A DNA stretch of 64,000 nucleotides, taken from the NCBI RefSeq assembly GCF_027023985.1, contig NZ_JALVTW010000011.1, positions 62,001 through 126,000 of the forward strand, read 5' to 3'. The notes beneath the pieces were generated by a model. The model did not search any database and was not told where the DNA came from. It was given only the letters and a program-made list of their open reading frames with translations. Source of the DNA: Persephonella sp. (GTDB taxonomy: Bacteria > Aquificota > Aquificia > Aquificales > Hydrogenothermaceae). Of the stretch, positions 3,736 to 64,000 are shown one piece after another. The translations under genes were made by a program, and so were the position numbers. The stretch's first letter is position 1. Each line of letters starts with the position of its first letter.

Positions 3736-3788
3736 TTGTTTATTATATTAAACAAAATTTGATATAATTTGTTTATTATGGAAAACAT
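3736..3788 (+). promoter_or_regulatory. twin palindromic operator and leaderless promoter of the first DUF4143-type ATPase
   Basis: Copy 1 (3736-3755) is TTGTTTA-TTATAT-TAAACAA, a perfect 7-bp inverted repeat. Copy 2 (3769-3788) is TTGTTTA-TTATGG-AAAACAT, an imperfect one. The first 19 bases of the copies match at 16 positions and are offset by exactly 33 bp. A consensus -10 box TATAAT (3763-3768) lies between them. The likely start ATG (3778) lies in the spacer of copy 2, 9 bases after the -10, so the mRNA would be leaderless. Copy 1 covers the region where a -35 element would be. Binding here would block the promoter. The second ATPase gene (61906) has the same layout with a different sequence. 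Confidence 0.7.
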
Positions 3789-4977
3789 TTTTAGTTTATT
3801 TCAGGAAAGATTTATAAGTTTACTTGCCAGATTTGATATTAGCTATAAAAGGTATTTTTATAAAAAAATAAATCTAAACGATAAATTAATTGGTATTATC
3901 GGGGCAAGAGGAGTTGGGAAAACAACATTTCTTTTACAATATCTCAAAGAAAATAAGCTTCCGATTTCAAAAAAACTTTATATATCAGCAGACAGTATAG
4001 AATTCAGTGATATTTCTCTATTTGAGTTCGCAAAATATTTTGAAAGTGTTGGAGGAAAAGTCTTAGTAATAGATGAGATTCATAAATATAAAGATTTTGA
4101 AAAACATTTAAAGCAAATTTATGATTTTTTAAATCTGAAAGTTTTATTTTCAGGTTCCTCAGCTATCAGATTGGAACACTCCAAAAGTGATTTAAGCAGA
4201 AGGGCTGCAATTTATAAAGTAAATGGTCTGTCTTATAGAGAGTTTTTAGAATTAAAACTTGGAGTTTCATTTAAAAGCTATACTCTTAAAGAAATTTTAG
4301 AGAATCATATTGATATTTCTTATGAAATTTCAAAAATCATAAAGCCCCTTGAGTATTGGAAAGAATACTTGCAAAAAGGTTTTTATCCATTCTATTTTGA
4401 AAATCCAGAAACTTATTACATAAAACTGGAACAAATCATAAATACAGTAATAGAAACGGATCTGCCTTTTGTTTTTAACATTGAAATTGAAAACTTAATT
4501 AAGTTAAAAAAGTTAGTAAAACTGATATGTGTTTCAGAACCTTACGAACTTAATTTATCCAAATTGGCTCAGAAAATAGAGATAAACCGAGTTACTTTAT
4601 ACAAATATATAGATTATCTACATAGAGGAGATATTCTGTTTATTTTAAAATCTTCTCAAAAAGGAGATAGTATTTTTACCAAACCTGAAAAAATATATAT
4701 GAACAACACAAATCTGAATTATTGTTATTGTGAAAATCCTAAAATCGGAACAATAAGAGAAACATTTATAATTTCAATGCTTCGGGAAGACCATCAGATT
4801 GAATATCCTAAAAAGGGTGATATTAGGATTGATGGAAAATATATATTTGAGATAGGAGGAAAAAATAAAAAACAAACTCAGATAAAAAATCTAAAAAATA
4901 GCTTTTTGATAATAGATGATATAGAAGTTGGAACAAAAAACAGAATACCGTTGTGGTTGTTTGGATTTTTGTATTAA
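3778..4977 (+). CDS. AAA ATPase of the DUF4143 group (cellular role unknown)
   Basis: About 399 residues from ATG 3778; TTG 3769 is in frame but lies 0-2 bases after the -10 box and is unlikely. A Walker A motif GARGVGKTT is followed by Walker B VLVIDEIHKY about 50 residues later and a sensor-like SGSSA. A winged-helix-like segment lies at about residues 258-297 (LSKLAQKIEINRVTLYKYI). The C-terminus is short and holds a PD-(D/E)XK-like piece (GDIRIDGKYIFEIGG, then K). ATPases of this type are frequent in archaea and thermophilic bacteria and have no established role. The gene stands alone between a terminator and a convergent gene. The helix-turn-helix and the promoter palindromes make autoregulation plausible. 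Confidence 0.82.
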   Translation: MENIFSLFQERFISLLARFDISYKRYFYKKINLNDKLIGIIGARGVGKTTFLLQYLKENKLPISKKLYISADSIEFSDISLFEFAKYFESVGGKVLVIDEIHKYKDFEKHLKQIYDFLNLKVLFSGSSAIRLEHSKSDLSRRAAIYKVNGLSYREFLELKLGVSFKSYTLKEILENHIDISYEISKIIKPLEYWKEYLQKGFYPFYFENPETYYIKLEQIINTVIETDLPFVFNIEIENLIKLKKLVKLICVSEPYELNLSKLAQKIEINRVTLYKYIDYLHRGDILFILKSSQKGDSIFTKPEKIYMNNTNLNYCYCENPKIGTIRETFIISMLREDHQIEYPKKGDIRIDGKYIFEIGGKNKKQTQIKNLKNSFLIIDDIEVGTKNRIPLWLFGFLY

Positions 4978-61865: not shown

Positions 61866-61917
61866 TTTCCTTATTAAAAGGAAAAAATTATGCTAAAATT
61901 TCCTTATGAAAAGGAAA
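61866..61917 (+). promoter_or_regulatory. twin palindromic operator and leaderless promoter of the second DUF4143-type ATPase
   Basis: Two palindromes, TTTCCTTATTAAAAGGAAA (61866-61884) and TTTCCTTATGAAAAGGAAA (61899-61917), match at 18 of 19 positions and are offset by exactly 33 bp. An extended -10 (TGCTAAAAT, 61891-61899) sits between them. The ATG (61906) falls in the centre of copy 2, 7 bases after the -10, so the mRNA is expected to be leaderless. The same layout, with a different sequence, occurs before the ATPase gene at 3778. Confidence 0.75.
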
Positions 61918-63210
61918 GAAATATTTAAAGAGCTTATAGTTGAGTTCCAGAATAGACAATTGCCAACTGTTATAAACCGTAATATAGAAGTTCCTATCAA
62001 TACAAAGAAAATAATTTCTATTATAGGTGTAAGGCGAAGTGGTAAAACTTTTGTTCTTTTCCAAACAATCAAAAAATTGCTCAATGACTATAAAATTCCC
62101 ATAGAAAGAATAGTTTATATAAACTTTGAAGATGAACGACTTGAGATAACAAAAGAGGATTTAAATCAACTTATAGAGGCTTATACAGAGCTTTATCCGG
62201 ATATCTCTCTTGATAAGGTTTATTTCTTTTTTGATGAAATTCAAAATGTGCAGGGTTGGGAAAAATTTGTTCGCAGAATTTATGATAGCTATACAAAAAA
62301 TATATTCATAACCGGCTCAAACTCAAAACTATTATCCTCTGAAATAGCAACTTCTTTAAGGGGAAGGAGTATATCATTTACGGTGTATCCACTTTCATTT
62401 AAAGAGTTCATAAAGTTCAAGAACATAAAAACAAAAAAAACTGATATTTATGACATAAAGAAAAGGGCAAAAATAAAAAGCTTATTCTTAGAATATATGG
62501 AGTTTGGAGGATTTCCTGAAATTGTGTTTTTAGAAGATGAAAATTTAAAAATAAAGGTATTACAGGAATATTTTGAAGTAATGCTTTATAGGGATATTAT
62601 AGAAAGATTTCAAATAAAAAATCCTTTAGTGTTGAAATATTTTGTAAAAAGAGTCGTAGAAAATGTAGGAAAGCCTTTGTCTGTTAATAATATTTACAAT
62701 GAATTAAAATCTCAGGGGTTCAAGCTGGCAAAGGATAGTTTATATTCTTATTTAGAAATGTTAGAAGCTATATTTTTTTCATTTATAGTAAAAAAATACA
62801 CAAAGTCAGTTTTAAAATCTGAGTTGACACACAAAAAGGTTTATTTGATTGATAATGGATTTTTAAATGCTTTGAGTTTTTTATTTAAAGAAAAAAAGGG
62901 TGCTTTACTGGAGAATATACTTGTAAAAGAGTTTAAAGCCAAAGGCAATGAAGTTTTTTATTTTAAAGAAAAAAAAGAATGTGACTTTATAGTTGTGGAT
63001 GCTGAAAATAACTTAATTCCTGTTCAGGTTAGTTTTTCTCTTGTAGATAAAGAAACAAGGAAAAGGGAAATTGAAGGATTAATAGAGGCTTTAAAATTCC
63101 TTGGTTTAGATAAAGGATTAATAATAACTTTAGATGAAAAAGAAGAACTAAAAATGAATAATTACAAAATAGATATAATCCCCGCTTATGAGTATCTGCT
63201 ACAGTTATAA
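61906..63210 (+). CDS. AAA ATPase of the DUF4143 group
   Basis: 434 residues. Walker A GVRRSGKT (residues 41-48), Walker B VYFFFDEIQNVQGWEK (105-120), sensor FITGSNSKLLSSE and Arg segment LRGRS (151-155) are followed by a winged-helix-like region (about 257-300; SVNNIYNELKSQGFKLAKDS). The C-terminal half is a PD-(D/E)XK-type DUF4143 region with LLENILVKEF and CDFIVVDAENN; the usual acidic residue is replaced by Gln in IPVQVS, so nuclease activity looks lost. The overall plan is as in the ATPase at 3778 but longer. No Shine-Dalgarno precedes the ATG. It stands alone between two plus-strand genes. Confidence 0.9.
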   Translation: MKRKEIFKELIVEFQNRQLPTVINRNIEVPINTKKIISIIGVRRSGKTFVLFQTIKKLLNDYKIPIERIVYINFEDERLEITKEDLNQLIEAYTELYPDISLDKVYFFFDEIQNVQGWEKFVRRIYDSYTKNIFITGSNSKLLSSEIATSLRGRSISFTVYPLSFKEFIKFKNIKTKKTDIYDIKKRAKIKSLFLEYMEFGGFPEIVFLEDENLKIKVLQEYFEVMLYRDIIERFQIKNPLVLKYFVKRVVENVGKPLSVNNIYNELKSQGFKLAKDSLYSYLEMLEAIFFSFIVKKYTKSVLKSELTHKKVYLIDNGFLNALSFLFKEKKGALLENILVKEFKAKGNEVFYFKEKKECDFIVVDAENNLIPVQVSFSLVDKETRKREIEGLIEALKFLGLDKGLIITLDEKEELKMNNYKIDIIPAYEYLLQL

Positions 63211-63290: not shown

Positions 63291-64000
63291 ATGTCAGAAA
63301 TTATTAAACAGCCTATTGAGGAAGAGGTAAAATCAGCCTATTTAGATTATGCTATGTCTGTTATCGTCGGAAGGGCGATACCAGACGTCAGAGATGGTCT
63401 TAAGCCTGTCCAGAGAAGAATCCTTTACGCAATGAATGAACTTGGATTATATCCAAATAAACCATATAAAAAGAGTGCAAGGATTGTAGGGGAATGTTTT
63501 GTTGCTGGAACTCTGGTTAATACTGAAAAGGGATTAAAACCTATTGAAAAGATAGAGCGTGGAGAAAGAGTCTATACTCAAAAAGGATTAAGAGAAGTTA
63601 CAGAACTTTACATAATGCCACCACAACCTTTATTAGAGGTTGAGCTTGAAACAGGTGTTGTTAATAAAGTAACAAAAGGACAGATGTTCAAAGTCTTTGA
63701 TGAAACTTTAACTTTCGTATGGAAAAGGGCAGATGAACTAAAAGAAGGAGATTATGTTGTTTTATCAGCAAAAGAGCCTGATATTTCTGAATATCAAGTA
63801 GTAAATGGACTGAAAATAGATGAAGATATTGCTTATTTATTGGGACTATTTCTTGCAGATGGATGGATTGATAAAGACAAAAGAGGATATAAAAGAATTG
63901 CATTTGGATTAGATAATAAATCTGTATTAGATAGAATAAATGAAATTCTACTGAAGAAGTTCGCTAAAAAGGAAAATATCCAGCACAGAGAAAATCACTA
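63291..64000 (+). CDS. gyrA: DNA gyrase subunit A, interrupted by an intein, 3' end outside the window
   Basis: The first 68 residues are ordinary Gyr[39 protein letters not shown] and KKSARIVGE. The frame continues without a stop into an intein from Cys69 to the window's end (236 codons). In E. coli GyrA the insertion point corresponds to Asp72/Val73, just before the quinolone-region helix (GKYHPHGD). The rest of GyrA, including the active-site Tyr, is not in view. Gyrase A cuts and rejoins DNA during supercoiling. Confidence 0.95.
63495..64000 (+). mobile_element. gyrA intein with LAGLIDADG endonuclease, N-terminal part
   Basis: Begins at Cys69 ([20 protein letters not shown]), a typical intein block A. 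Block B reads [10 protein letters not shown], where the usual TxxH is TxxQ (Thr128, Gln131). [14 protein letters not shown] follows, matching the spacing of the splicing domain in mycobacterial GyrA inteins. Then a dodecapeptide endonuclease motif, [10 protein letters not shown] (residues 183-192), opens the homing domain. The C-terminal splicing blocks are beyond the window. Protein splicing would excise it to restore GyrA. Confidence 0.93.

Follow-up and report, generated by a model that had tools for sequence, protein, structure and literature searches.

Why should the start codon of a solitary ATPase gene lie within one of two matching palindromes, and which protein reads them? The question is raised by a gene at positions 61906 to 63210 of the window, by which we mean the whole 64,000-nucleotide stretch of Persephonella sp. 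DNA that was analysed; this gene, its domains and operator, and the paralogue discussed below all lie on the forward strand. The gene encodes 434 amino acids and stands alone, flanked by gyrA and an unrelated 386-aa gene, with different neighbours in other genomes, and it is thus a single gene, not the two-gene operon with an antitoxin that characterises type II toxin-antitoxin systems. An intein that has Hint and LAGLIDADG domains interrupts the adjacent gyrA (window positions 63291-63999) after roughly 69 codons, and the gyrA nucleotide matches to several relatives end at base 204.

The protein matches the Pfam families AAA_14 (2.8e-38) and DUF4143 (1.5e-20) and the PADLOC profile PDC-S01 (8.3e-112). 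PDC-S01 has been reported to rank fourth in abundance among putative prokaryotic defence systems, with 9,986 archaeal and 29,494 bacterial copies, and is unvalidated; the ATPase plus PD-(D/E)XK architecture described for it is also that of the 434-aa protein (PMC12988326). An AlphaFold2 model (pLDDT 94.9) predicts an Orc/STAND-like ATPase combined with a winged helix and a PD-(D/E)XK-like domain. The AAA_14 ATPase domain occupies residues 34-168 (62005-62409), carries the Walker A motif GVRRSGKT and is recognised by Pfam, the model and Foldseek alike. The predicted winged helix spans residues about 240-298 (62623-62799; pLDDT >90) with its recognition helix at 276-288, and is the natural candidate for the operator reader. 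The PD-(D/E)XK-like domain comprises residues about 331-434 (62896-63207), in which E336 and D360 are present and QVS replaces E-x-K. The nuclease-motif lysine is likewise missing in most GxRRxGK-type (RR-type) proteins, which have Q/N-x-C/S/T/A, and E-x-K is retained in 48 of 51 GARQxGK-type (RQ-type) proteins, the remaining three being without a recognised motif. A PDB sequence search with the window protein returned zero homologues; the best PDB folds found by Foldseek were the archaeal ATPases SSO1545 (2fna) and PABY2304 (2qen), followed by DNA-bound Orc1/Cdc6 (2qby) and CED-4/STAND, with TM-scores of about 0.3-0.5 that denote likeness at the level of the fold only.

Paired palindromes at the 61906 gene and its paralogues

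The operator of the 61906 gene, which we call operator A, consists of two 19-mers offset by 33 bp. Copy 1 (61866-61884) is the palindrome TTTCCTTATTAAAAGGAAA and lies over the expected -35 position; copy 2 (61899-61917) is the palindrome TTTCCTTATGAAAAGGAAA and holds the start codon at 61906-61908. Between both palindromes an extended -10 element, TGCTAAAAT, can be read at 61891-61899, with its hexamer at 61894-61899. Twin 19-mers, 33-bp offset, ATG in the second copy and intervening -10 had all been proposed in a sequence-only reading of this DNA, and each is where that reading had placed it. When the window was scanned for operator A with 3 mismatches allowed, just these two sites were recovered, each on both strands, amounting to 4 matches where 0.52 were expected and a number that none of the shuffles reached.

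Transcription is expected to start near the ATG, and the gene therefore likely produces a leaderless mRNA. The seven-base arms of copy 1, which are non-coding, are 100% invariant in 13 A-type orthologues, compared to an average of 0.52 for the 35 bp upstream. In the A-type proteins the conserved N-terminal residues M-K-R-K are encoded within copy 2, and the conservation of the protein at this end may thus reflect constraint on the DNA. A copy that spans the start codon could also fold in the mRNA, and the palindromes might then act as RNA hairpins that control translation. We regard this as extremely unlikely: copy 1 is situated upstream of the -10 element and should be untranscribed, the copies are not just palindromes but also match one another, with a phasing that follows helical turns, and an Rfam search of the operator region gave zero family matches and hence no known RNA element.

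The genome encodes exactly four DUF4143 genes, two within the window and two outside it; all four match the PADLOC PDC-S01 profile, and twin palindromes accompany 4/4 of these AAA_14/DUF4143 genes, with four different palindrome sequences and offsets of 33-34. The second gene of the window, of the GARGVGKT type (3778-4977), has AAA_14 and PADLOC profile matches; AAA_14 is clear, and its DUF4143 score of 27.7 bits falls just under the Pfam cut-off of 28.1. Its operator copies, TTGTTTATTATATTAAACAA at 3736-3755 and TTGTTTATTATGGAAAACAT at 3769-3788, are offset by 33 bp, the second includes the ATG at 3778, and TGATATAAT sits between them, so that the earlier suggestion of the same geometry with repeats unrelated in sequence to those of the 61906 gene is borne out. 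The two genes outside the window carry TTTATCCTTGTCAAGAAGGATAAA / TTTATCCCTGTTTAGAGGGATAAA at offset 34 (C11:23.6k) and TATACGATAGTATCGTATA / TATACGATGGTGTCGTATA at offset 33 (contig C9). Shuffle tests of the four operator pairs of the genome yielded z = 7.7, 3.2, 5.4 and 6.2.

Spacing across the PDC-S01 family

The 5' regions of family genes were scored for palindrome pairs whose two members match one another, at offsets of 22-60 bp, against a null of dinucleotide-preserving shuffles. The surveyed loci were found by similarity to the proteins of this genome, and the sample consequently leans toward that side of the family. Among 225 bacterial and archaeal relatives the offsets with the best scores cluster at 32-34 bp. 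In 82 regions from similarity-found loci in both bacteria and archaea, 26 had pairs unmatched by any shuffle, and the offset was 32, 33 or 34 in 24 of these 26. A score of at least 31 together with an offset of 32-34 was attained by 29 of 126 family ORFs as opposed to 3 of 263 control ORFs, and two of these three, judged by strand and position, look like divergently oriented ORFs that read the same operator. Thinning of the pooled set to <40% identity left 25 significant cases, of which 14 lay at 32-34 (1.4 expected, p=5e-12) and four at 22-23 (p=0.01). An apparent mode at 40-42 bp was not significant after thinning and has been set aside.

Subfamilies defined by their Walker A motifs differ in this respect. 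Among 175 distinct members, the best offset is 32-34 in 88 of 123 GxRRxGK-type, 13 of 17 GARGxGK-type and 15 of 34 GARQxGK-type genes; the last group has a second mode at 22-23 bp, approximately one helical turn less, which canonical RQ-type genes favour and which is seen again in Bacteroidota. The 32-34 set splits into about 20 unrelated classes of palindrome. Three or four copies at the same period are found in 24 of 93 genes, and the phased arrays include four copies at exactly 33 bp in a Methanosarcina locus (L136) and four at 32 bp in each of L101 and L194. A clear 32-34 pair is lacking in roughly 30% of the RR-type members and in over half of the RQ-type ones. In an independent hold-out of plasmid and phage members, mostly from mesophiles and at about 30% identity, just 4 of 19 had an offset of 32-34, several were at 39-42 bp and few pairs were significant. 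A universal 33-bp rule is ruled out by the RQ-type spacing of 22-23 bp and by this hold-out; the spacing of ~33 bp is a property of a large part of the PDC-S01 family, not of the whole. Within that part, both the enrichment of 33-bp-offset repeats and the combination of conserved geometry with divergent sequence that the sequence-only reading had anticipated are evident.

It might be argued that such pairs are chance products of A+T-rich, low-complexity DNA combined with shared ancestry, given that the region is A+T-rich and single cases are often not significant alone. This explanation is rejected by the dinucleotide-preserving shuffles, the control ORFs and the identity-thinned sets, and it is at odds with unrelated palindromes sharing one spacing; we consider it virtually untenable.

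The placement of the pair relative to the promoter also recurs. Across the family, hexamers resembling a -10 box occur immediately 5' of copy 2 more often than expected (29 versus 8.8), and in 33 of 89 genes copy 2 contains the start codon, which places copy 1 over the -35 region and copy 2 where transcription is expected to begin.

Operator identity, its candidate reader and the history of the locus

A count of operator A, the only operator to which this genome-wide analysis applies, found two sites at 0 mismatches in the whole genome and all others at 3 mismatches; the latter are mostly background by comparison with a reversed control pattern (control 4 and 7). The exact twin-A pattern occurs at 13 sites in 136 Aquificota genomes and at none in the reversed control, and a scan of viral contigs for it gave zero matches. 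All of these sites are at the starts of family genes with the exception of two, in genomes G006 and G035, both of which are remains of such genes.

Among pairs of genes from different genomes operator similarity rises with protein identity, from a median of 0.82 at 45-60% to 0.96 at 60-80%, and paralogues of the same genome have an operator similarity of 0.23 against a background of 0.21. Operator identity follows the orthologue, not the genome, and co-resident paralogues differ. Selection for orthogonality among co-resident paralogues was considered in view of the low similarity within genomes; we do not claim it, because in an Akkermansia-type clade the operators differ as well between equally similar relatives from separate genomes. 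That each paralogue would recognise only its own site is suggested by the divergence of the operators.

If the protein reads its own operator, its winged helix might be expected to covary with the palindromes, as the earlier reading had predicted. Covariation of protein windows with operator similarity was tried on two alignments. In the first, the Walker A motif and the N-terminus ranked top, the signal of the latter being confounded by its partial encoding within the operator. In the second, overall protein similarity predicts operator similarity within the RR subfamily (rho 0.44-0.54), and after correction for it the recognition-helix window, residues 274-282, ranks 17th of 421 (top 4%), with other regions higher. 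For the strongest operators of the RR subfamily the window ranks 7th of 420, and with the subfamilies pooled it ranks 184th of 416. The predicted covariation between recognition helix and operator is not clearly borne out: it is suggestive in the main subfamily, where other windows nonetheless score higher, and it disappears in the pooled set.

This weak signal counts in favour of another explanation, in which a separate regulator of defence genes would bind the palindromes and the PDC-S01 protein would not read them. Precedents for such regulators exist at other defence loci, where RptR and BrxR/CapW repress phage-defence genes via palindromic operators (PMC12255303, PMC9122601). Here, however, every paralogue has a palindrome of its own and operator A has no other sites, such that each gene would need its own regulator; the 61906 gene is solitary, and from genome to genome the identity of the operator goes with that of the ATPase protein. 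A separate regulator therefore appears unlikely to us.

The distribution of the gene invites another explanation, namely that it is mobile, inserting at or carrying palindromic ends on which the protein would act as a recombinase-like ATPase/nuclease. That distribution is patchy (26 of 61 relatives), and members of the family are found on plasmids and phage contigs. In the Persephonella genome and in G005 the intergenic spot before gyrA is occupied by an A-type gene, and in G011 by one of B type; in G006 and G010 the same spot has solo palindrome pairs and no gene. In G006 (locus L252) the interval between the upstream gene and gyrA contains a solo pair, TTTCCTTTTAGTAAGGAAA / TTTCCTTTTTATAAGGAAA, at offset 32, from which the gene has gone and a 3' remnant is left; in G010 (L250) the same interval contains a decayed B-type pair at offset 34. 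At a third locus (L346, G035:C1:182987) the twin operator and start codon are intact and an in-frame internal deletion leaves about 72 codons. The remains of the gene in G006 and G035 make these sites look like losses, not empty targets. Nor does the 3' end of the 61906 gene carry an operator copy, as a terminal repeat would, there being two sites with <3 mismatches genome-wide; moreover, the position of the operator is tied to the -10 element and start codon, and the lysine of the nuclease motif is lost in most RR-type members. Taken with these observations, mobility or homing is very unlikely to account for the palindromes.

Proposed autoregulation and its relation to known systems

A palindrome over the gene's own promoter and start, a predicted DNA-binding domain in the product and few other sites are the marks of an autoregulatory operator, and all three are found here. 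We consider it likely that the twin palindromes are the private operator of the 61906 gene, and that they would mediate negative autoregulation by cooperative self-binding of its product. This proposal builds on the observed sites, their phasing and placement in the promoter, conservation among orthologues, difference between paralogues, the privacy of operator A and the predicted DNA-binding fold; from these we infer that the protein binds cooperatively and represses, and likewise any part played by ATP or by induction upon infection. Two protomers would bind each palindrome through their winged helices, and protein on copies three helical turns apart would touch its neighbour, probably via the ATPase modules. 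The bound protein would cover the -35 region at copy 1 and, at copy 2, the start codon together with the start point, and would thereby block the polymerase. Expression would be kept low and set by the level of the protein itself, possibly also by its ATP/ADP state, and private operator sequences would let several members share one cell without cross-repression.

Such an operator leaves the downstream job of the protein, a candidate phage sensor or effector, unaddressed; if its own promoter is its sole DNA target, the protein needs some further function. A literature search, which left aside subscription papers and preprints, found no description of how PDC-S01 is regulated. If correct, the proposal would provide the first mechanistic handle on PDC-S01, with a predicted DNA ligand for each protein and a rule for predicting that ligand from the upstream sequence; it would also supply about 20 naturally occurring, mutually orthogonal repressor/operator pairs, archaeal ones included, and explain how several paralogues coexist without cross-talk.

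With LexA, type II antitoxins and HspR the proposed system has in common low-copy, promoter-embedded palindromes over the -35 region and start point of a winged-helix gene's own promoter. It differs in its fixed three-turn phasing, in having up to four copies and about 20 unrelated classes, in its occurrence in both domains of life and in the fusion of the proposed reader to an Orc/STAND-like ATPase. Iterons and the origin boxes of Orc1/Cdc6 are also phased repeats beside a gene, with an AAA+ module plus winged helix as reader, a likeness reflected in the similarity to 2qby; by contrast the PDC-S01 sites are embedded in promoters and usually number two, and an origin or Rep function was not seen.

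A further parallel is provided by PDC-S27 (PF01637/DUF234), sister single-gene ATPase plus PD-(D/E)XK candidates with a conserved promoter palindrome. There a single wide palindrome, TCGTTTTTAgATTATAATaATtTAAAAACGA, is centred on the -10 element in place of two phased copies; it lies upstream of PDC-S27 genes at loci L307-L316, including a copy in the Persephonella genome itself (L005/L314). Promoters read by the gene's own product may thus be widespread among such ATPase-nuclease genes. In two PF01637 ATPases of the YAPRRFGK type (L322 and L324) the start codon is covered by tandem palindromes like TATTATACTAAAAGTATAAAA with an offset of 23. We raise as a tentative and rather doubtful generalisation that a code spans the superfamily, in which Orc/STAND-like ATPase-nuclease genes of both domains of life (PDC-S01 and, with other geometry, PDC-S27) would each read a private, phased operator at their own promoter, with a spacing that comes in whole helical turns (22-23 or 32-34 bp) and the operators of co-resident paralogues kept orthogonal, and in which each protein could sit poised as a sensor at its own promoter, to be released by infection and so induce its own gene. 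In RptR and BrxR/CapW the regulator is a separate gene that controls a neighbouring operon, whereas in PDC-S01 the regulator and the candidate effector would be one protein acting at one private site.
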